A model generated the notes under the pieces. It was given only the letters and a program-made list of their open reading frames with translations, had not been told where the DNA came from and made no database searches. This document shows, one piece after another, positions 41,295-62,656 of a stretch of 62,656 bases of DNA (position 1 is the first letter of the stretch; each line of letters opens with the position of its first letter). The stretch is from Stentor roeselii (lineage: Eukaryota; Ciliophora; Heterotrichea; Heterotrichida; Stentoridae). The position numbers and the translations under genes are program-made. The stretch spans positions 1-62,656 of the forward strand of contig RSEH01000271.1 in NCBI GenBank assembly GCA_006503475.1. Reading direction: 5' to 3'.

Positions 41295-44072
41295 TTAATC
41301 TATAATTGAACTTGAAATAGTCTCAGTAATTTCTCTCTCTACAAACTTGATAAGTTGATAAAAATATAAACGCTCTTCAGATTCGCATAGCATATTTCGG
41401 AGTATACTTTTTAGCCAATGCAAATTAATCCTATCTAGTTCTTCAATGTATGATTCTATATTTCGCTTTATTTCTCTAATATTCTTTAAATGAGCTAACT
41501 GAAGAAGAACTAAACCTAATGAGAAGACATCACATTTTTCGGGATCTATTACTGCACTTTTTTTTTCTTCTTCAGGAGACTTATATTCTTTAGATAATCT
41601 TGGCAGTAAATTGATTTCAGATTCATACCAATTATCATTTATTTTGATTGCTGCAAAGATAAAATCAGTAATTCCAATATTATAATTTTCATCAATTAGT
41701 AATGATAGTGAACTAATAGAACGATGGAGAATATTTTGACTTGCTAAAAATGCAAAAGATTCAACTAAACCTTTAACAATTATTGCTAATTGTGAATTTG
41801 GAAGTTCAAATTCACCTTTAGATTTTAGATGCTTCAATTCATTCATTATATCAAAAAGGGTCATATCATAATTGTTGATAACTATTAAAAAATCATTTCC
41901 TGATTTTACTGAACCAAAATATTCGCAAAAACAATTTTGGGGGTTTCTTGAAGTATTGAGAAGTTCATAGCACTTTGCTTCTTTTTCAAATTCTAATTCA
42001 ATTGTTTTTATAAGATCTTTACTTAAATTTTCATTAAATGTATATTTCTTTACAAGTACTTTTCTTGTAGAGTAAATTGATTCGAAGATTTTTATGCTAT
42101 AATATTTACTATTGATCGTTTTATTTAAATTATTTTCTGAAAGTTCTTGAATATTAATGAACGTTTTCATTTCAAATACATTCCAAGGGTTAAAATTACT
42201 AATCTTTATATTTTCAAACTCTCTTATTTTTTTTAGTTGTTTTAATGAAATCTCTATTTTTTTCTTTGTATCAAATTCACTAATCGAATCAACCAAAAAC
42301 ATCATAATCTGAATATCATATTTTCCTTCAATATCAATTCTTATATTTTCGTTTTTAGAATAATATTTTGTAATGATTCTGCTCGCATCATCATTTAGAT
42401 GCAGAAGTTTATAATTCAATTTTGTAAATTTAATAAGGTATGTAGATATGTCAAGAGCTATCTTCATTTCTTTATTTCTGTTGAATTTTAGTAGATATTT
42501 ACTAATAATTATTGATAGTTGCTCTTCAATTTTTATTTTACCTAGATTATATTTATGATAGTAATCACAAATTAATATCGCTACTTTTGCATCTTTATAT
42601 AGTAATTCAAGATCTTCTCTTTGAATTATGCAACTTAAAAGATTTTCATGTAGAATAAATAGCAATTTGTTAAAAAAGTTTATCTTCAATATCATCTCTT
42701 CGTAAATAGCTATAAGATATTTTTCATTCTCAGTAAAAAATACACCTTTAAGTTTGGAGGTATTATAACTTAAAATAAAATGTACTTTATCATCTGGATT
42801 TGGATGATAAACAATAATTTCATTATCATTATATCTAATTTTAAATAATCTATCTTTGGAATATATAGGGTTTTGAGTAATTGACTGCATTTTATAGTGT
42901 AGAGTTTTCATCCAGTTTCTAAAATGAATACTATTTGTTCCTTGAGTATCATAATTCAAATTGAATTCTTTTTTGTTCTTTTTTATATTCCAGATTTTTA
43001 TTTTACCTATTCCATTAAAACAATCGGATGATACAATAGCCAGATAATTTCGGTCAGGAGAAAAAGAACAGCAGTTTACAGCTTGTCCATTAATAGTTAA
43101 ATATTCTTTTTGTTCTTTTATATTCCAGATTTTTATTTTACCTTTTTTGTATAAGTTATCAGATGATGCTGTAGCCAGATAATTTCCATCAGGAGAGAAA
43201 AAACAGCAATTTACCAAACCTGAATCATCTTTAAGAGTAAACTCTTCACTTTTCATTTTTATATTCCAAATCTTAACCTCTCCATATGATCCAGTTACCA
43301 GATAATTTCCATCAGGAGAGTAGGAACAGCAGCGTATCAAATCTAAATGTCCTTTTAAAGTGAATTCATCCCTTTTCTCTTGAATATTCCAGATTATTAT
43401 ATTGTTGTCTGATGATCCAGTGGCCAAAAAATTTCCATCAGGAGAGAAAGGGCAGCAATATACAATACTTAAATACATGTTAATAATAAATTCTACTGTT
43501 TTATCTTTTAGATTCCAGATTTTTAACTCTTCATATGATCCAGTTGCCAGATAATACCCATCAGGAGAATAACAACAGCAAAATACCCAATAAGAAAATT
43601 CATTCAGAGTAAATTCTTCCCTTCGCTCTTTTATATTCCATATTTTAACTAGCTCATATGATCCGGTTGCCAGATAGTTTCCATCAGGAGAGTAAGAACA
43701 GCAATTTACCAAATCTGAACTTTGATTCAAAGTAAACTCTACTCTTTGATCTTTAATACTCCAGATTATTATTTCACCACCTGAATAAAAGTTAACTGAT
43801 CCGGTTGCTAGATAATATCCATCAGGAGAATAAGAACAGCAATATGCCGAGCCAAAGTGTTCATAGAGAGTGAACTCTTCTCTATTATCTTTTATATTCC
43901 ATATTTTTATTTCAACACCTGAATAATAGTTAACTGATTCCGTTGCAAGATAATTTCCATAAGGAGAGTAAGAAAGGGAATATACCCAATCTGAATGTCC
44001 ATTCAATGCTAATTCTGATCTTTGCTCTTTAATATTCCATATATTAATCTTCTTGTATGATCCATGTGCCAC
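41295..44072 (-). CDS. WD40-repeat / pseudokinase protein, 3' part of a split locus
   Basis: A 925-codon frame from ATG 44072. It begins in the middle of a WD40 repeat, and the same frame continues upstream for 12 codons to a TAA, beyond which the next WD40 frame continues. About nine repeats follow (residues 1-400). A central helical region spans about 400-640. A kinase-like domain spans about 645-920. The strand lysine is present (KVLVKKY near 672). The catalytic loop reads ILHRSISS, losing the Asp, and DFG reads DFI, so catalysis is unlikely. The conserved DVFSLGLVLLQLAHL helix remains. If the TAA is real, this piece would need its own start in mid-repeat, which argues that 41295-46061 was built as one gene. 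Confidence 0.7.
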   Translation of the reverse strand: MAHGSYKKINIWNIKEQRSELALNGHSDWVYSLSYSPYGNYLATESVNYYSGVEIKIWNIKDNREEFTLYEHFGSAYCCSYSPDGYYLATGSVNFYSGGEIIIWSIKDQRVEFTLNQSSDLVNCCSYSPDGNYLATGSYELVKIWNIKERREEFTLNEFSYWVFCCCYSPDGYYLATGSYEELKIWNLKDKTVEFIINMYLSIVYCCPFSPDGNFLATGSSDNNIIIWNIQEKRDEFTLKGHLDLIRCCSYSPDGNYLVTGSYGEVKIWNIKMKSEEFTLKDDSGLVNCCFFSPDGNYLATASSDNLYKKGKIKIWNIKEQKEYLTINGQAVNCCSFSPDRNYLAIVSSDCFNGIGKIKIWNIKKNKKEFNLNYDTQGTNSIHFRNWMKTLHYKMQSITQNPIYSKDRLFKIRYNDNEIIVYHPNPDDKVHFILSYNTSKLKGVFFTENEKYLIAIYEEMILKINFFNKLLFILHENLLSCIIQREDLELLYKDAKVAILICDYYHKYNLGKIKIEEQLSIIISKYLLKFNRNKEMKIALDISTYLIKFTKLNYKLLHLNDDASRIITKYYSKNENIRIDIEGKYDIQIMMFLVDSISEFDTKKKIEISLKQLKKIREFENIKISNFNPWNVFEMKTFINIQELSENNLNKTINSKYYSIKIFESIYSTRKVLVKKYTFNENLSKDLIKTIELEFEKEAKCYELLNTSRNPQNCFCEYFGSVKSGNDFLIVINNYDMTLFDIMNELKHLKSKGEFELPNSQLAIIVKGLVESFAFLASQNILHRSISSLSLLIDENYNIGITDFIFAAIKINDNWYESEINLLPRLSKEYKSPEEEKKSAVIDPEKCDVFSLGLVLLQLAHLKNIREIKRNIESYIEELDRINLHWLKSILRNMLCESEERLYFYQLIKFVEREITETISSSIID

Positions 44073-45890
44073 ATAATTTCCATCAGGAGAATAAGAGTAG
44101 CTATTTTTTTATTCTGAATATTGTTCAAATATAAATTGTTCTCTTTGCTCTGCTATATTCCATATTTTAACCTCATATGATACAGTCGCCAGATAATTTC
44201 CATCAGGGGAAAAAGAACAATCATTTACCCAATGTGAATATTCATCACTAATAAATTCTGTTTTGTATTTTTTTATATTCCAGATTATTATTTTACCTTT
44301 CTTAGTAATTCTATCAGATGATCCAATTACCAGATAGTTTCCATCAGGAGAGTAAGAACAGCCATTTACCCAACCTAAACCTCCATTGAGAGTGAACTCA
44401 TTTATGCGTTCTTTAATATTCCAGATTTTTATTTCACCTCCTGAATATAAATTATATGATCCAGTTACTAAAAATTTTCCATCAGGAGAGTAAGAACAGC
44501 AATATACCCAACCAATGTTTATCATCACTTTAAACTCCTCTCTTTGATCTTTTATATTCCAGATTTTAAACCCTTCGAATGAACCAGTTGATAGATAATT
44601 CCCATCAGGAGCGTAAGAACAGCAATTGACCCATCCTGAATGTGCATGCAGAGTAAACTCCTCTCTTTGTTCTTGTATATTCCAGATTTTAACCTCCTTA
44701 TACGATCCAGTTGCCAGATAATTTCCATCAGCAGAGTAAGAACAGCAAATTACCAAACCTAAATGTCCATTAAGAGTAAATTCTTCTTTTTTATTATTTA
44801 AATTCCATATTTTAACCTGTTTATAAGATCCAGTAGCCAGATAATTTCCATAAGGAGAGTAAGAGCAGCAATTTACCGAACCTATATGCCCAGTTAGAGT
44901 GAACTCTTCTTGTTGATCGATTATGTTCCAGATTATAATCTTTTTGTCTCTTGATCCAGTCGCCAGATATTTTCCGTTAGGAGAGTAAGAACAGCAATAA
45001 AACCAACATGAACTATTGTCCTGTCTTAGAATATGGACTTGTTCTTTTATATTCCAGATTTTTACCTCATTTAGTGATTCAGTTACAAGATAGTTTCCAT
45101 CAGGAGAGAAACAACAGCAATTTGAATTTACTTTTAAAGTGAACTCCTCTTTTTGCTCTTGTAAATTCCATATTGTAACCTCATTATATGATCCAGTTAA
45201 GAGATAATTTCCGTCGGGAGAGTAGATGCAGAATTTTAAATAAAATGAATCTCCATTCAGAGTGAACTCTTCTCTTTTCTCATTTATATTCCAAATTTTT
45301 ATTTCACTTATTGAATATATATTTTTTATTATAGTCACAAGATAATTTCCATCAGGTGAGTAAGTACAGCAATTTACCGAACCTGAATAACCGCTCAAAA
45401 TGAATTCTAATATTTTTTCTTTTATATTCCAAATTTCAATATCCGCTGTTTTTGATCCGATTGCCAGATAATTTCCATCAGGAGAGTAAGAACAGCAATT
45501 AAAATAATTAGACTTCAGAGTGAACTCTTCTCTCTGCTCTTTTATATTCCAAATCATAATTTCATTTTTAGATAATATTTTTATTGATCCAGTGGCAAGA
45601 TAATTTCCATCAGAAGAGTATGAACAGTAATTTACCGAACATGAATAACCGTTTAGAGTTAACTCTAATATTTTATTTTTTATATTCCAGATTTCAAGAT
45701 ATTTTTCTTCTGATCCGATTGCCAGATAATTTCCATCAGGTGAGTAAGAACAGCAATTAAAGAAATGCCCCTCAAGAATGAACTCTTCTCTGTGCTCTTT
45801 TATATTCCAAATTTTAACGTTATTCGATACAATAGCCAGATAGTTTCCATCAGGTGAGTAAGAAAAGCATTTTACATTGTTTAAATGTTT
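42935..45890 (-). repeat. Array of about 23 near-alike WD40-coding repeats
   Basis: Direct repeats of roughly 120-140 bases each code for one WD40 blade. On the plus strand each unit contains variants of TTTCCATCAGGAGAG and a string like TATTCCAGATTTT. The units differ mainly in length between these two blocks and in the stretch after them. Close DNA similarity across blades points to recent internal duplication or gene conversion. Confidence 0.85.
44109..44111 (-). other. In-frame TAA breaking the WD40 locus
   Basis: The codon sits exactly where repeats such as HSGW-VNCC have Trp. The next residues (KNSYSYSPDGNY) continue the repeat in the same frame and register. There is no GTA...AG sequence around it, so it is not an intron. 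It is either a recent nonsense mutation, a read-through site or an assembly error. Confidence 0.8.
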
Positions 45891-46061
45891 TTCCTCAAAG
45901 ATTATAATCGGCCATGAATATATTTGTGTGCTATATTCTGAATATCTTGAATAGTACTTATATAACTTCTTATTTGCTTTATCTTCTTCATCAATATTAT
46001 CCAATTCAGGAGTATTCAAATCTTCAGGCTTTTTTTTTGTTCGTGAACCAGAATTTCCCAT
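44109..46061 (-). CDS. N-myristoylated WD40-repeat protein, 5' part of a split locus
   Basis: A 650-codon frame from ATG 46061 (context AATAAATG). It starts MGNSGSRTKKK, a good N-myristoylation signal followed by basic residues, predicting membrane attachment. After about 65 residues, 14 WD40 repeats run to the stop. Each follows the frame CCSYSPDGNYLATGS, a variable gap, KIWNIKEQREEFTL, then a variable six-residue stretch. The repeats are unusually alike, also at the DNA level. Repeat 14 is cut by TAA right after QYSE, where other repeats carry the final W of a pattern like HSGW. The frame and repeat register continue unchanged past the stop. Confidence 0.75.
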   Translation of the reverse strand: MGNSGSRTKKKPEDLNTPELDNIDEEDKANKKLYKYYSRYSEYSTQIYSWPIIIFEEKHLNNVKCFSYSPDGNYLAIVSNNVKIWNIKEHREEFILEGHFFNCCSYSPDGNYLAIGSEEKYLEIWNIKNKILELTLNGYSCSVNYCSYSSDGNYLATGSIKILSKNEIMIWNIKEQREEFTLKSNYFNCCSYSPDGNYLAIGSKTADIEIWNIKEKILEFILSGYSGSVNCCTYSPDGNYLVTIIKNIYSISEIKIWNINEKREEFTLNGDSFYLKFCIYSPDGNYLLTGSYNEVTIWNLQEQKEEFTLKVNSNCCCFSPDGNYLVTESLNEVKIWNIKEQVHILRQDNSSCWFYCCSYSPNGKYLATGSRDKKIIIWNIIDQQEEFTLTGHIGSVNCCSYSPYGNYLATGSYKQVKIWNLNNKKEEFTLNGHLGLVICCSYSADGNYLATGSYKEVKIWNIQEQREEFTLHAHSGWVNCCSYAPDGNYLSTGSFEGFKIWNIKDQREEFKVMINIGWVYCCSYSPDGKFLVTGSYNLYSGGEIKIWNIKERINEFTLNGGLGWVNGCSYSPDGNYLVIGSSDRITKKGKIIIWNIKKYKTEFISDEYSHWVNDCSFSPDGNYLATVSYEVKIWNIAEQREQFIFEQYSE

Positions 46062-47752: not shown

Positions 47753-50700
47753 ATGCTAGCCTTATGTCTAATTCTTCACCAGGTCAAATCAAATTTAGTA
47801 GAATACCGGTTCAGTAATTCCTTTGGGCAGAAATTCTGGGACTATTCAGGAAACAACAACCATGGTTCAAATAGCTTCGCAGTTTCTAATATAAAATCGA
47901 CTGATAGGGGAGTATACTTAAGCGAGGATAATAGTCAAATTGAGACTCCAGATAATCTGGCTTTGCCTTCAATTGTGACCTACTTGGGCTGGGTTATGCC
48001 TGAAGATTCACAATATAGACTATTTTATCGAGTAAAAAATGTATCAAATAGATATCACATCGGAAGGAAATCGATATCAAGCGCTGTTTATATTAGTGTT
48101 TTCTCGAATGGCAATACTGCAGAAGTAATTGGTCCAAATGATAGTTTTCCATCAGGACTATGGTCGCTAGTAGTTTTGACTTATGATCAAACGACATTCA
48201 AGGCATTTATCAATGGAAATCATAAAGCAAATCTTGTTCATAGTTTTACAACATCTTCAACAGATTTTCATACAGGAGTAGGAACTTACCTTCCCACACC
48301 ATTCACTGCTGTGAAAGGGTTTGTTTGGAATTTTATAATCATGACTGACACCCCGGACTACTTGAAATTCATGAGCTCTTCATCTTCAAATTGCTTAATT
48401 CCAGGAATTTGCTCGAGTTGTTCTGTGTCAATTGTTGATGATGATCTTGGAACCGGCTGCTTACCGACTAACATGGATCCATCAAAGAATTCTAAGGGAA
48501 TTTCTTGTGAGAGCTCATCAACTGGATGCTCTGTTTCAACTGAATATTTCTGCAGCTCATCTACTGTGGCTTGCTTATATGATCGAGTTACTAATAAATG
48601 CTATGAAAGAATGATAATATCGCCTTATAATATTACAAATGTTAAGTGCAAGTGTCAAAATGGTTATGTTAGCACAAATAATCAATGTTGCAATTCTGAT
48701 TGTGATACTTGCGATATGACAGGATTTTGTTCAAAATGCAAGGCTTCGAATAGTTTTCTTAGCTCTGGAGTTTGTAATTGTCTTTCTGGATATTTTCTAA
48801 GTACCCCCACCACATGTCTAGAATGCGGTCCTGGGTGTAAATCATGTTCCTCAAGTGATAAGTGTCTTACTTGTTTTGATAAAAATATGATTGAAGTTTC
48901 TGATGTATGCACTTGCAATTATGGATTTTACCACAAAAGTGATGATGAATGCGGGAGTTGCAATATTGGGTGCAAAACATGCTCTTCAACTAACCTTTGC
49001 ATCAGTTGTTGGGATAATATTAATATGATTGTATCTAACGGAGTCTGCATTTGTGTGATAGGAATATACAATCCTAGTTCAAAAAGTTGTGATCCTTGTA
49101 ATTCTGGGTGTAAATCTTGCTCGTCGATTGAGGTATGCTTGGAGTGCTGGAACATTAATATGGTAATAAGTGGTGCAAATTGCGTTTGCAAAGATTCATA
49201 TTACATCGTTAATTCAAATGATTGTAAAAAGTGTCTGACAAATTGTTTTAAATGCACATCTGAAATCAACTGCATCCATTGCAAAGATGGAACTTATCCA
49301 CCATTATGTTCTGATTGTCACTCTAAATGCGAAACATGTATAGGTCCTGAATTTAATGAATGTGTGACCTGCAAACATTTTATTTTACAAGATGTCTGCT
49401 CTGATACTTGTCCAGTCGGATTCATTCCATTGAACAAAAAATGTGAAAATAAAAATTTAGAATTACCTACCTTAAGTTACAAATTTGATGGTATAGGAGA
49501 AGTATTTTATGATTTAAATAATAATATTTCTGCACATATCCAGAAAAGTGATAAGAGAAACACGAGTGAACCACAACTAAGAGTAGCGTATGCCAGAGGG
49601 CTTTACTTCCCAACATTATCATGTCTGGAAATCACTGAAAACTCTAAAATATTCAACAATCGTTTTTCACTTAGTATCTGGTTAAGACCTAAAATTGATT
49701 CTGCTGTAATCATATCAAAATATAACGGCGATAAAACTCTTCAATATTTTACTCTATCTTATAATCAATCCTCTTTTAATACTGATATTTTTATAAGAAA
49801 TTCAATAAATTTCAACAGATTTTCTAACAGTCTAAAAACAGGTATTTGGAATCATGTATTTGTCTCAATAAATCAATCATCCGAAACTCTGCTGACTGTA
49901 TCAATAAACAAAATAATCGAATCAAGATTTCTAAGTTCTTTTCCATTCACAGATTCAGATAGTTCCTTTATGATAATTGGTTCAGATCTGAATATGCAAA
50001 ATTCATTCAAAGGATTTATTTATTCTATCGAACTTTACGCGATTTTCAAGAATGAAGATCTTTTCGCTTCTCTTTGCCAGTCTTGCGATATTTGCTTGAT
50101 AAGTGGGATTTGCCTTTCTTTATGTGAAATAGAAGAATATTTTGATGAAAAAACCAAATCATGTAAAAATTGTCCAAATGAATGCATTTGTCGAAACCCG
50201 AAAACTTGTCTTCAATGTTCTGATCAATTTTGTGAATTTTGTGAGAATTTCGAACAAAAAAGTTGTTACAAGTGTCCAACAGGCTTCGAACTAAAAAATA
50301 AAATCTGTGAAAAATGTAAAGACCAGGAATTTTATGATGAAAAGAAAACTTGTCAGAAATGTCCATCATTATGTCGCTCTTGTGTGTCTTCTTCGAAATG
50401 CTTGAGTTGTGAGGAAAATTCGATTTTAAATGATTCAAAATGTTTTTGTGAAAAAGGTTTTTCATTTGAAGGTACATGTAAAAGAAATTATTTCACTGCT
50501 GAACTTGACATATCAGAAGATAATTCAATTTCTTTGAGTTTTTCAGAACCTTTAGATAATCCTCTTGAAAAAGAACAGATTTTAGTAAAAATCGACGAAA
50601 AAAGAACGAAGTTTAAAGTTCAACAGAAGAATAGCGAAAAATATATTTTGATAATTAATGAAGATGATATTTTTCAAGACTCATTTCTTGTCATCTTGTT

Positions 50701-51997
50701 TCAGAAAGAGATGATTTCTGTGAAAAACTCTTTATTAAAACAAACTAGTCTTTCAGGAAAACTCTATCTGACAGAAAAATTAAAAACAAAGAGAGAGTTA
50801 GAAAAAAAAGCAGCTGCTGCTCAGAAAGTAGGAAATATTGGAGTAGTCACAGGAGTATCTGTAGGTCTTCTCGTTTCTCTTTCCACTCAAGATCCTTCAT
50901 CTCTGTTTGACTTTTTGAATACAGCAGAGATTTTTTATTCAGTTTACCTGTTTGAATATGAATTGAATCTGGTTCTCAGCAGTTTCCTTCTTGGTTTAAG
51001 GCTTCAGGACAGCCTTCCTAACTTGTTTTACTTTATACTTGACACTAATGAAGGGGTCGAAACATCGAGTACCTTGAAAAAATTCGGATTTACTTCAAAT
51101 TTGTTTATTATTAACATTGGAGTTCTTCTAGAAACCCTTTTATCATTTTTAGTTATCAGCATAATATTGGCACTTTTGAATTTAATATCTTTCTTCAGAA
51201 TAAAGCTAATCTCAATCATTAAAAACTTCAAGTTCGCGATTTTTCTTAGGTTTTGGATTCAATCGTTTTATGAGATGAGTACAGCTTTACTTTATTCCTT
51301 TAAGTATTCAAAACTGGAAAACAAAACACAATATATTGATTTTTCCTTTAGTGTATTATTTGCGGTATAAAATAATTAGGCTCTTGAAATTTCAGGACTT
51401 TTTCTAATGATCAATTTGTTAAGATTAAGAAAACACTTAAAAGATGATGATGAGCAAAATAAGCTGTTTTTAAGCAAGTTTGGAACTTTTTTTGAAGAGT
51501 TTAAAGAACGTGGGGTTAAAGATTGGATGTTTTACTTGATTTTTATATTTAGAAGAGTGGTGCTTGTAGTTTGTTACTATCTGGGAAAATATGCTGAAGT
51601 CCAGCTCGCGCTTTCATTGTTTTTTTCTTTATTGGTAATAACTACATAGACCTGTGTGTATTTTTTGATTGTTTGGCCAAATAAGCAGTTGATATTTAAC
51701 TTTTATCATATTTTAAATGAACTTTTGATTTCAGCTTATAATTTGATTCTGATTATTAGCTACGCTGATGGAAGTTTAACAGATTCTCTGCATAGAGCAA
51801 ATCTTTGTATTTATTTGGTTTACGCTGCTTGGGGATTAAATGTTTTTTGCAGCTTGATTATTATTTGTCAGAAAATCAGAGGAAAAATCAAAGAGTGGAT
51901 GGAAAAAAGAAAGGCGAATAAGGTTGAAAATAAATATATTAACAAAACAGCTCCAGATATTTTTACCTTTTACAGAAAACCGCATGTTATTGACTAG
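47753..51997 (+). CDS. LamG/Cys-rich surface receptor with multi-pass C-terminus
   Basis: The coding sequence joins 47753-51364, 51380-51634 and 51650-51997 across two 15-nt introns, giving 1,404 residues. A short signal peptide (MLALCLILHQVKS) is followed by a LamG/concanavalin-like domain (about 16-215). Next come Cys-rich furin/EGF-like repeats (about 220-570, many CxxC and GCKSCSS units). A second LamG-like domain spans about 575-780, and a second Cys-rich block about 785-910. After a beta-rich linker there are six to eight membrane helices (about 1000-1370) and a basic tail. Ciliates have large families of Cys-rich surface proteins, some with TRP- or polycystin-like membrane parts. A sensory or adhesion role is inferred. 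Confidence 0.85.
51365..51379 (+). other. 15-nt intron 1 of the receptor gene
   Basis: GTATAAAATAATTAG, between complete codons (GCG and GCT). Removing it passes an in-frame TAA and joins two membrane-helix coding stretches. It fits GTA-N5-TA-N2-YAG. Confidence 0.9.
51635..51649 (+). other. 15-nt intron 2 of the receptor gene
   Basis: GTAATAACTACATAG, between complete codons (TTG and ACC). Its last three bases are the only stop in this frame, and removal leaves a continuous hydrophobic helix. It fits the same consensus. Confidence 0.9.
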
Positions 51998-56658: not shown

Positions 56659-59001
56659 CTAAACCTTAAAAACTCTAAAATCTCCTTCATTCGATGCAAC
56701 TAAAATAAACCTTCCACTCCTTGTGAAAGACAAAGATTGTATCGGTTGCTCAAAAACTTCAAAAGTTTTCAATTTTTCACATCTTTCTACTCCCCACAAT
56801 AAAACAATTCTATCATTTGACCCACTCACAACAAATCTGTCATCTTTAGAAAAAGCTGCAGCTGTAACCCAGGTCGAATGGCCTAAAAAACATTGAATTT
56901 CATTTCCATTCAAATCCCAAATTTTCACACAACCATCATCATCTCCACTAAGAATAAACTGAGAATCATGAGAAAAAGAAAGATTTCGTATCCAATTCTT
57001 ATGAGCCTTGAAACTTAAAATTTCTTTTTCTTTATCAACATCCCACAACTTTAAAATCTTTTCATCCCCACTAACAGCATATTTTTTATTTTTAGAAAAA
57101 CTGATAGGAACATATAATTTGTTGTTGTAATTTTCATTCATTTTTATATAATCTTGTATTTTCCAGTAATCACAATTGTTTCTATAAAATAGTGATAAAC
57201 GCTTTCCATCATAGAAAATTTTAGCAGGTTTCAGTTTAAAATCAATTATTAATTCATAAAATTTTCCTTTGATATTCCAAATCTTTAATATGCCCAGTTT
57301 ATAATTAAAAATATAATCTTCATTAATACACATCTTAAAATAACCAGGAATACTATAATCTAAAGTTTTAGAAAAAATATTCCATATGAAGGTTATGCAT
57401 TTGGAATCATTAGAATATCCAACAGTAATTAATGACTTATCATCTTTTGAAAAATATACAAAAATAATTTTTGGGAATATTTGCATCAAACTATACTCTT
57501 CACATTTAGCATCAATATTCCAGAGTCCAATATATCCATCTGCAAATCCAAAAGCAACATACCTGCAATCATTAGAAAATGAAGCATCTGATATTTCAAC
57601 TTTTCCTCTTTCAACTTCAAAAACTTTAAAATTTTTCATTATATTCCAGACACTAGAACAAGTAACACTGGTCAAGAGGGCAATAAAAGATAAGTCTTTT
57701 GATATAGGGAATCTTTCTGATAATAATGTTTTCAATTTATAAGTGTGAAAAATAAATTCCTCGGTTTTTAAGTTAAAAACTTCAATAGAGTACTCTGTAA
57801 CAAATAGCAAATGATTACCATCAACAGAAACTTGAATAAAACAAATTTTTTTTTTTTTTTGACAAAAAATAATTTCGATTTTTTCTTTTTTCATGTTAAA
57901 GATTTTCAAACCTTGAGAATAACTGTTCAGCCCGACATATTTTCCATCATCTGCAATTAAAACTCTTTTAATAAATTCATCTTGTAAATTACGGATATAA
58001 ATGATTTTTTCAGGTATCTTAGAAATTTTGCAAAGGTAAATATTACTTCCAATCAAGATCTTTCCATCAGGACTAAAATTTATTTTATGTCCAAATAGAT
58101 TATTAGGAAATATTCTTTCTATGTTTTTATTCTTGATGTTTAAGAGTTTTAAATAATCTTTACCTGCGATCGCTAGAGTTTGATTATCAGGTGAAAATAC
58201 CAAAGAACAAATTCTCTCTACAAACTTAAAAGAAAACTCTTTGCATCTTAAATCAAGATTCCAAATCGTTACAGTTAATTTAAAAAGAGTTGCAGCATAA
58301 ATGCTGTTATTTGAAATGATCACAGTTGTTATCTTGTTTTGTTTACCAAATAATTCAAATTCTTGTTTTCTTAATTCATAATTCCATACAATAATTGAAC
58401 CATCTGACGACCCACTGATGATAAATTTGCCATTAGCTGAGCATGCGATGGACATCACAGCTCTTTCATGTCCATTTAACGTGAATTCTTCTCTTTTATT
58501 AAAAAAACTCCAAAAAATTATCGAATTTTTTTCTGGGTAAGCTACAAAGTTTCCATCTGCAGAGAAAAAAGCCGTAAAGGACCTATCAGATGACATTGGT
58601 ATTATTGAATTTAAAGTTTTCTGTTTAAAGTTCAAAATTTCTATAAATTTTTGATATCCACATAGAAGAAACTTTGAATTTGGTGAAAAATTAAGAGACT
58701 TAATATCATTTGATGTTTCTAGATATGGCTCTAAATGGTTTTGTGGAATGTTTAGGATTTTCATTGATCGCTTGTCTGCGAAAACCACGAATATTCCACA
58801 AGGCGATACAGCCACTGAAAGAATACGATTTTCAGGAGTATGTGTTAGGATTGTCCAATCTGATTCATGCTGCTCTTTATGAGAGTTTTTTATTTTTTGG
58901 TATAAACTATTTTGGGCTTGATTTTGAAGAACTTGAGTATCTGGTATCTTTAGTCTTGAATTATAGGCAGTCAGCGATCTAGGAAACTGATATTCGTACA
59001 T
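56659..59001 (-). CDS. WD40-repeat protein, probably two beta-propellers
   Basis: A 780-residue protein. After about 55 residues, roughly 14 WD40 repeats fill the sequence to the C-terminus, enough for two seven-bladed propellers. Clear blades include FIISGSSDGSIIVWN near residue 193, FILSGDDDGCVKIWDLNG near 686 and FVVSGSNDRIVLLWG near 728. Unlike the 41-46 kb locus, the repeats here are diverged from each other, as in a conserved scaffold protein. No other domain or signal peptide. The role is unknown; protein-protein scaffolding is expected. It is intact, with the AATAAATG start context. Confidence 0.8.
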   Translation of the reverse strand: MYEYQFPRSLTAYNSRLKIPDTQVLQNQAQNSLYQKIKNSHKEQHESDWTILTHTPENRILSVAVSPCGIFVVFADKRSMKILNIPQNHLEPYLETSNDIKSLNFSPNSKFLLCGYQKFIEILNFKQKTLNSIIPMSSDRSFTAFFSADGNFVAYPEKNSIIFWSFFNKREEFTLNGHERAVMSIACSANGKFIISGSSDGSIIVWNYELRKQEFELFGKQNKITTVIISNNSIYAATLFKLTVTIWNLDLRCKEFSFKFVERICSLVFSPDNQTLAIAGKDYLKLLNIKNKNIERIFPNNLFGHKINFSPDGKILIGSNIYLCKISKIPEKIIYIRNLQDEFIKRVLIADDGKYVGLNSYSQGLKIFNMKKEKIEIIFCQKKKKICFIQVSVDGNHLLFVTEYSIEVFNLKTEEFIFHTYKLKTLLSERFPISKDLSFIALLTSVTCSSVWNIMKNFKVFEVERGKVEISDASFSNDCRYVAFGFADGYIGLWNIDAKCEEYSLMQIFPKIIFVYFSKDDKSLITVGYSNDSKCITFIWNIFSKTLDYSIPGYFKMCINEDYIFNYKLGILKIWNIKGKFYELIIDFKLKPAKIFYDGKRLSLFYRNNCDYWKIQDYIKMNENYNNKLYVPISFSKNKKYAVSGDEKILKLWDVDKEKEILSFKAHKNWIRNLSFSHDSQFILSGDDDGCVKIWDLNGNEIQCFLGHSTWVTAAAFSKDDRFVVSGSNDRIVLLWGVERCEKLKTFEVFEQPIQSLSFTRSGRFILVASNEGDFRVFKV

Positions 59002-62536: not shown

Positions 62537-62656
62537 ATGGCGAAATCTGGTTCATGCAGAGTAGCGGGAGAAGAAATACTCAAAATTCCTGGAGATAATG
62601 ATGAAATTGAAGGAGCTAAGGTTCAAAAGAAGATATATAAGNACTATAAAAGGTAT
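62537..62656 (+). CDS. Partial gene at the right edge
   Basis: An ATG in good context (CTATAAATGG) opens 40 codons that run off the window: MAKSGSCRVAGEE, later EGAKVQKKIYK. Codons are markedly less AT-rich than the upstream spacer, which supports a real start. One base is N at 62642. Too short to name. Confidence 0.6.
   Translation, partial: MAKSGSCRVAGEEILKIPGDNDEIEGAKVQKKIYKXYKRY

Follow-up and report, generated by a model that had tools for sequence, protein, structure and literature searches.

The 62,656-base window analyzed here is a Stentor roeselii contig (C198; RSEH01000271.1, forward strand) from a 44.39-Mb, 522-contig assembly. On its minus strand (41298..46061) it carries a gene that joins a long array of WD40 blades to a linker and a C-terminal pseudokinase domain, and this gene belongs to a large family. 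The family, which is largely subtelomeric, probably consists of diversifying intracellular recognition proteins with a pseudokinase output. The putative recognition role is supported by the pattern of selection on blade codons, with nonsynonymous change significantly in excess at only four of the 42 codons of the repeat, all of them within a site set defined in the fungus Podospora.

Blade anatomy and fold

Blades were counted where a match to our blade model spanned profile columns 8 to 38, with other matches left uncounted, in a set of 28 retrieved regions carrying family genes, fragments, or relatives (some matched loci lie outside this set). From 287 blades, 46 were excluded before the codon analysis, 26 from paralogues and 17 from the window because of indels and 3 because anchor columns were missing; first, last, and partial blades were then removed and window blades separated, leaving 190 internal blades from 28 open reading frames (ORFs). 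The window blades were analyzed apart (21 aligned, 20 used).

The WD40 array reported in a first-pass annotation of this sequence is real, with 23 blades between about 45908 and 43005 on the minus strand. Its description of the blades as nearly uniform suits the paralogues better than the window copy. Of 241 steps from one blade to the next in paralogue ORFs, 213 measure exactly 42 residues. Mean pairwise amino acid identity there is 72% over the unit (190 blades), and the consensus, taken as the commonest residue per column, is EEFTLNGHSxxVxCCSYSPDGNYLATGSxDKTVKIWNIKEQR. The window gene is an outlier, with units of 38 to 47 residues, a 42-residue frame that fits only 4 of 21 aligned blades, and mean pairwise identities of 57% (unit) and 70% (framework). 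Its unit lengths vary through an insert in the B-C loop and short deletions in the D-A loop; the variable B-C insert noted earlier is therefore present but is mainly a feature of this copy; indels also led to the exclusion of 26 paralogue blades.

Variation is focused on two stretches, as first proposed. In the 21 alignable blades of the window gene, entropy was 1.8 to 2.7 bits at columns 6 to 11 and 2.3 to 2.7 bits at columns 29 to 32 versus 0 to 1.5 bits at columns 14 to 28, and across the family the most entropic columns were 29, 13, 10, 11, and 31. Of the 190 blades, 180 have a distinct combination of residues at six loop sites, and six framework sites give only 19 combinations.

The predicted model of window blades 8 to 14 is a canonical seven-bladed WD40 propeller, with a predicted local distance difference test score (pLDDT) of 90.1, a predicted template modeling (TM) score of 0.89, and a TM score of 0.90 to 5yzv; it also matches the symmetric Wrap designs 7big and 7bie. 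This model was built with an alignment of three non-overlapping slices (A2), and an out-of-register version from overlapping slices was left unused. Strands in its first blade lie at columns 12 to 17, 23 to 28, and 33 to 37, with the next running from column 42 to column 5 of the following blade, which places columns 6 to 11 in the D-A loop and columns 29 to 32 in the B-C loop, in agreement with the first-pass assignment; column 13 is modeled as the second residue of strand A. In established WD40 geometry the D-A and B-C loops lie on one face of the propeller. The same arrangement is described in PMC1805685.

Selection on blade codons

According to the first-pass annotation, a lack of excess nonsynonymous change at the two loops would argue for an ordinary scaffold; in the family this outcome was not seen. 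With a site-wise grid codon model (own script; FastTree tree, F3x4, kappa 2) applied to the 190 internal blades, the posterior probability that the nonsynonymous rate (beta) exceeds the synonymous rate (alpha) was above 0.99 only at codons 9, 10, and 13, on the D-A side, and 29, in the B-C loop, with likelihood-ratio test (LRT) p values of 4e-6, 3e-3, 4e-3, and 2e-2, respectively. Parsimony counting on the same tree gave p values of 2e-5, 0.02, 0.023, and 0.006 at these codons and no others below 0.05. The signal recurred in two disjoint sets of genes, which together hold 140 of the 190 blades: at a posterior of at least 0.9, codons 9, 10, and 13 were recovered in genes with the pseudokinase (69 blades, 9 genes) and codons 9, 13, and 29 in genes of a truncated class (71 blades, 10 genes), with no other column in either set.

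Because recombination blurs blade trees, we also computed the ratio of nonsynonymous to synonymous differences (pN/pS) from blade pairs only. Over all 17,955 pairs, pN/pS was 1.81 at the loop sites and 0.41 in the framework; the 244 pairs differing at no more than 10 nucleotides gave 4.28 for the six loop sites and 0.29 for the framework; and the 12 closest, with no more than 6 nucleotide differences, gave 2.04 for the loop sites. The window copy had a framework pN/pS of 0.39, compared with 1.28 for its D-A loop and 0.92 for its B-C loop.

One alternative is generic drift after duplication, in which new blades diverge under relaxed purifying selection at unconstrained loops and have no recognition role. 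Loop positions are free in most WD40 proteins, and several copies in this family are broken, as drift would allow. Accelerated divergence of repeat copies, under both relaxed purifying and positive selection, has moreover been called universal (PMC5120217). However, relaxation alone should bring the ratio of nonsynonymous to synonymous rates (omega) close to 1, whereas mean beta was more than twice mean alpha at codons 9, 10, 13, and 29, and the contrast between loop and framework in pairs with at most 10 differences is likewise not what drift would produce. Synonymous rates at codons 10, 13, and 29 were ordinary, so these codons are not mutation hot spots, and the sites agree with a set taken from a different organism. 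We therefore regard drift as unlikely.

Correspondence with the Podospora site set

The first-pass annotation likened the array to fungal HET-type WD40 proteins, and the likeness holds at the level of single residues. In the Podospora HET-D and HET-E repeats, high dN/dS was found at positions 10, 11, 12, 14, 30, 32, and 39 (PMC12222747), and an earlier study placed the four strongest codons, numbered there 7, 9, 25, and 27, in the d-a and b-c loops, on the interaction face (PMC1805685). The HET-E repeat given in PMC12222747 aligns without gaps to the family blade at an offset of -1 (H9/H8, V13/V12, P20/P19, D31/D30, and W37/W36), by which Podospora positions 10, 11, 12, 14, 30, and 32 correspond to columns 9, 10, 11, 13, 29, and 31 here, flanking V and D. 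Of the seven Podospora sites, four are significant in this family, two (columns 11 and 31) are variable without significance, and one (column 38) is conserved.

We then treated the seven sites of PMC12222747 as a single set, although the variable columns of this family were already known when the set was applied. With ORFs of fewer than 3 blades dropped (leaving 23 genes and 183 blades), pN/pS over all pairs was 1.55 at these sites (1.36 to 1.75 by bootstrap over genes) versus 0.46 elsewhere. The set exceeded the rest of the blade in 23 of 23 genes and was above 1 in 22, and its value was reached by none of 2,000 random seven-site sets.

The family resembles the Podospora anserina HNWD/NWD proteins (HET-D, HET-E, and HET-R, of the STAND/NLR type) in that the 42-residue WD40 repeats are highly conserved, are diversified by selection at corresponding columns of the D-A and B-C loops, and are exchanged within and between genes. 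Here, unlike in HNWD proteins, a short leader precedes the array, and a linker and a pseudokinase come after it; the HNWD family has 10 members, in contrast to 69 N-terminal matches in this largely subtelomeric ciliate family, and column 38 (Podospora 39) is conserved here.

No NACHT domain was found at family genes, the six NACHT-model matches in the genome all lying elsewhere. The same model finds matches in 11 of the 14 control genomes, 3 of them with matches over the cut-off. The C-termini of the window gene, L014, and L050 matched kinase models only, and that of L027 matched kinase and weak propeller models. No HET domain appeared for the whole window protein among the 25 of 43 Pfam matches listed, and family leaders, at about 44 to 97 residues, leave no room for a HET death domain, which is larger than that. 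The family would work like HNWD receptors without being one, as neither NACHT nor HET was found in these searches, and what is new here is an HNWD-style diversifying blade in a new architecture, with a pseudokinase instead of NACHT/HET, and in a new lineage. As a separate observation, the six NACHT-model matches fall in ORFs of 1,080 to 1,630 residues that may be NLR-like or other P-loop NTPases.

The parallel with HET-D and HET-E, which are known incompatibility determinants, extends site for site and would also fit a role in allorecognition or mating compatibility, in which the propeller tells self from conspecific cells, for example at conjugation. Neither allelic polymorphism nor a partner locus is known here, however, and a copy number of about 70 would be more in keeping with a repertoire for sensing pathogens, a role that the Podospora authors themselves suggested for their genes (PMC2873952). 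We consider allorecognition improbable to about the same degree as drift.

A conserved pseudokinase as the proposed output

The annotation of the C-terminal domain as a pseudokinase was confirmed by sequence. Family C-termini match Pkinase at about 1e-10, above the gathering score, and the window protein has HRS in place of HRD and DFI in place of DFG but retains the VAIK-type lysine. An alignment of 12 C-termini (11 from family members and 1 from L023, a distant relative) shows S, F, C, or N in place of the HRD aspartate and no DFG glycine in any of them, so that neither catalytic motif is intact; all 12 keep the VAIK-type lysine. Over 55 pairs, the pseudokinase half had a median omega of 0.40 and the linker half one of 0.60, a sign of constraint on the putative output part alongside diversification of the loops. 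The domain is thus, as far as its sequence tells, a pseudokinase that has lost catalytic residues and has been kept by selection. It shares the VAIK-type lysine and the PEE and DVFSLG motifs with protein pseudokinases, and the kinase domains of LIMK1, IRAK4, and RIPK1 are among its best PDB sequence matches; it differs from these in lacking the HRD aspartate and the DFG glycine and in being fused to a hypervariable WD40 array. A single-sequence AlphaFold model of the C-terminus was discarded (pLDDT of 35.8).

The 569-residue C-terminus of the window gene gave 78 matches in the genome, including itself. Eleven others are near full length, with 52 to 61% identity; more than 20, in our own grouping, match mostly over the first ~260 residues; and the rest are shorter or more distant, down to 25% identity. 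The truncated class (9 ORFs, plus L016 by eye) ends immediately ahead of the kinase part, with ...KIGILL...IIS or a similar sequence, and has the first ~260 residues of the linker in common with the full-length genes. Among the distant relatives, at about 25 to 36% identity, L023 (2682-6539) is itself a WD40-pseudokinase gene with non-uniform blades and the start MGNNQKKF, and it may be near the ancestral form of the diversifying genes.

Family size, repeat exchange, and chromosome ends

A genome-wide survey of paralogues, suggested as a check in the first-pass annotation, recovered a large family. A 65-residue N-terminal query from the paralogue on C92 gave 69 matches, some of them fragments and two of them the mirrored ends of one contig (C509), and an 82-residue blade query gave at least 219 matches.

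Blades appear to move both within and between genes. The nearest neighbor of a blade lay within its own gene in 84 of 190 cases, versus 8.4 expected (maximum of 22 in 500 shuffles), and the remaining 106 nearest neighbors were in other genes, 13 of them at an equal index, a pattern that fits local amplification together with exchange between genes. DNA outside the coding regions is also common to copies: upstream, 45 pairs among 15 sequences have matches (up to 859 bp, with 72 to 82% identity in the longest), and some downstream DNA is shared likewise, which points to segmental duplication.

The N-terminal matches are concentrated at contig ends and point outward: 59 of 69 are oriented toward the nearest contig end (p of 1.4e-9), the window gene (46061-41298) being among the 10 exceptions, and 49 of the 50 on contigs longer than 60 kb sit within 30 kb of an end, versus 21.4 expected. 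In Blepharisma the telomere repeat consists of permutations of CCCTAACA (PMC9942806). Three tandem copies, (CCCTAACA)3, occur in the S. roeselii assembly 220 times on the forward strand and 327 times on the reverse strand, and the reversed control does not occur. Telomere repeats were present on 8 of 57 contig ends examined (C161, C476, C122, and C413 of 37; C391, C288, C80, and C85 of 20), that on C288 being short and degraded (100 bases read). With so few ends bearing telomere repeats, many contigs must break inside or beside repeats, which inflates end clustering, and contig ends are therefore insufficient alone as proof of telomere proximity. Most of the weight falls on seven family genes that do face telomere repeats, which lie about 1.0 to 12.5 kb past the matched 3' end (C476, C288, C161, C391, C122, C80, and C85). 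On C413 a pseudokinase fragment faces the telomere and an N-terminal fragment faces away, and the right end of C175 is telomeric, with a pseudokinase fragment that lies about 21 kb from it and points that way.

Two contigs bear related copies at both ends. On C509 (163.5 kb; L117 and L118), the ends are inverted copies, with 2,469 identical bases and 99.1% identity over 2,873, and each bears an outward-pointing family gene; this may reflect chromosome-end exchange or an assembly artifact. The left and right ends of C281 (L011 and L012) carry closely related family genes with 90% identity over 1,442 bp, which fits exchange between ends.

The shared flanking DNA, and the existence of more distant relatives of the C-terminus such as L023, would also be expected of an ordinary cytoskeletal or signaling WD40-pseudokinase scaffold expanded by neutral subtelomeric duplication. 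Under such a model, nonsynonymous excess would not be expected to be confined to four top-side codons, with the other columns either under purifying selection or showing none, and this explanation is very improbable, having already been refuted by the selection pattern unless that pattern is an artifact of recombination. Slightly weaker still is the notion of subtelomeric variant surface antigens, displayed and varied to escape predators or parasites, as chromosome-end clustering and outward orientation are also features of classical antigen families but the leaders here are hydrophilic, no strong transmembrane segment was detected by hydropathy, and a kinase-like C-terminus would be typical of a cytosolic protein.

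Predicted cellular location

The first-pass annotation pictured the propeller as attached to a membrane, which does not appear to be a family trait. Only the window gene (MGNSGS) and the paralogue on C71 (MGSSGS) start with MG, and the other 26 of 28 leaders start with MA, MV, ME, MM, or MI. The MG start and Ser6 of the window leader presumably fit the N-myristoylation motif (MGxxxS), as does the start of the C71 leader. By hydropathy only, no strong transmembrane segment was seen in the 28 family leaders or ORFs (maximum 19-residue mean of 1.73), nor, on the same basis, a signal peptide, transmembrane anchor, or glycosylphosphatidylinositol anchor of the kind expected of surface antigens. The lack of a strong hydrophobic segment suggests that the protein is cytosolic.

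A possible recognition repertoire

The blades are probably reshuffled between copies at chromosome ends, by gene conversion and unequal crossing-over, so that each gene comes to hold a different blade mosaic, and the propeller or propellers would bind variable ligands through the variable top face. Such ligands could be pathogen or non-self proteins, symbionts, or fast-changing guarded host proteins. Ligand contact might shift the arrangement of propeller, linker, and pseudokinase and thereby recruit downstream partners, with the catalytically dead kinase domain acting as an allosteric switch or adaptor and not as an enzyme; proteins of the truncated class may be decoys, partners, or regulators. 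More tentatively, the family could be an NLR-independent, immune-like repertoire of a ciliate, in which about 70 mostly chromosome-end genes carry shuffled blades diversified at the fungal-type top-face residues and read out by a pseudokinase.

Several observations weigh against the recognition reading. All of the evidence comes from one genome assembly, in which the assembly of repeats may distort blade counts. Individual LRT p values are modest at codons 10, 13, and 29, only codon 9 survives Bonferroni correction in parsimony counting, and column 4, outside the loops, comes next (LRT p of 0.045, posterior of 0.85, the next highest, and counting p of 0.053). In the pseudokinase class alone column 29 falls below 0.9, though it has the highest beta there; codons 11 and 31 are variable yet not significantly above neutrality; and codon 38 is conserved despite belonging to the Podospora set. 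The blurring of blade trees by recombination affects the tree-based estimates, the framework ratio of 0.83 in the 12 closest pairs is not clearly below 1, and the signal of the window copy is weaker, though its pattern is similar. Some copies are broken (by the TAA in the window gene and in the frames of C156, C83, and C257), perhaps through errors or decay, and part of the family may thus be decaying. The outward bias was computed for family genes only, and the transfer of a signal to the pseudokinase is pure inference.

If the recognition reading is correct, macronuclear chromosome ends would serve in a single-celled organism as cassette sites for the renewal of receptors. Diversifying recognition repertoires occur in animals, plants, fungi, and some bacteria, and we know of no molecular candidate for one from a ciliate; the family would be a candidate, and a testable one, for the mechanism by which a large free-living cell recognizes intruders or conspecifics. 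The selection signature is as specific as that of Podospora, falling on the corresponding loop columns of an otherwise conserved 42-residue blade, and suggests that the high-identity WD40 blade is an evolvable binder platform repeatedly recruited by eukaryotic lineages.

Other repeat families offer partial parallels. The WD40/WRAP propellers of bacteria and fungi likewise have numerous, near-identical blades, with some arrays broken by stops or frameshifts, and the highly repetitive ones are about 70% bacterial, with fungi providing 84% of the eukaryotic ones; neither "ciliate" nor "Stentor" is mentioned in the main text of that paper, and the coupling to a pseudokinase and the site-wise selection described here go beyond it (PMC9218822). 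Among the matches listed from the open-access literature, a body that mostly leaves out subscription papers and preprints, no such ciliate family is described. The closest ciliate precedent among them is the rapidly evolving leucine-rich repeat genes of Tetrahymena, also a multigene repeat family with subtelomeric and pericentromeric enrichment for which unequal crossing-over was proposed; unlike the present family, they have another repeat fold and do not share the architecture, and "subtelomeric" there refers to germline chromosomes (PMC6564038).

Organization of the window

The WD40-pseudokinase gene starts with ATG (MGNSGS...) at 46061 and runs for 1588 codons to its stop, with a sole internal TAA at codon 651. 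Its conserved N-terminal leader (residues 1 to 51; ...KKLYKYYSRYSEY...YSWP) occupies 45909..46061 and is followed by blades 1 to 14, of 38 to 47 residues apiece by the blade model and Pfam WD40 (44139..45908), blade 15 (44019..44138), and blades 16 to 23 (43005..44018). A linker of about 300 residues with an approximate boundary (42108..43004) leads to the pseudokinase domain (41298..42107; Pkinase 1.5e-10, above the Pfam gathering score, best over 41430-41939), all on the minus strand. The linker may open with degenerate blades; in the paralogue L055 a Pfam propeller model reaches about 90 residues beyond the last blade, under its curated cut-off.

Blade 15 is broken by the in-frame TAA at 44109..44111 (minus strand), which the first-pass annotation did not mention and which leaves 14 blades before it and 9 after it, the interrupted blade being counted among the 9. 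A run of seven A residues adjoins it. The TAA could be a sequencing or assembly error, the mark of a truncation or of pseudogene decay, or phase variation; reading by eye, with no systematic search, revealed no GT...AG intron of 15 to 16 nucleotides across it.

Stentor uses the standard genetic code, and the telomere repeat combined with this code fits a heterotrich of that kind. An alternative code was rejected, since the standard code already gives 28 ORFs of at least 200 codons in the window; most long window ORFs gain only a few such codons when TAA and TAG are allowed as sense, and most contain no TGA when that codon is allowed. UGA is thus not read as tryptophan in the window ORFs, unlike in Blepharisma, where it has this meaning (PMC9942806).

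At the right end of the window, the start of a second family gene (MAKSGSCRV...; 62537..62656, plus strand) points outward and is cut by the contig end, with 73% identity to the family N-terminus over 40 residues. A 780-residue ORF at 56662-59001 (minus strand) has two weak matches to the blade model and is a separate WD40-like gene. Adjoining the WD40-pseudokinase gene is a large cysteine-rich ORF (47753-51367, plus strand) with CxxC-type repeats and a hydrophobic C-terminal part, and ORFs that resemble it by eye sit beside family genes in L015 and L019.

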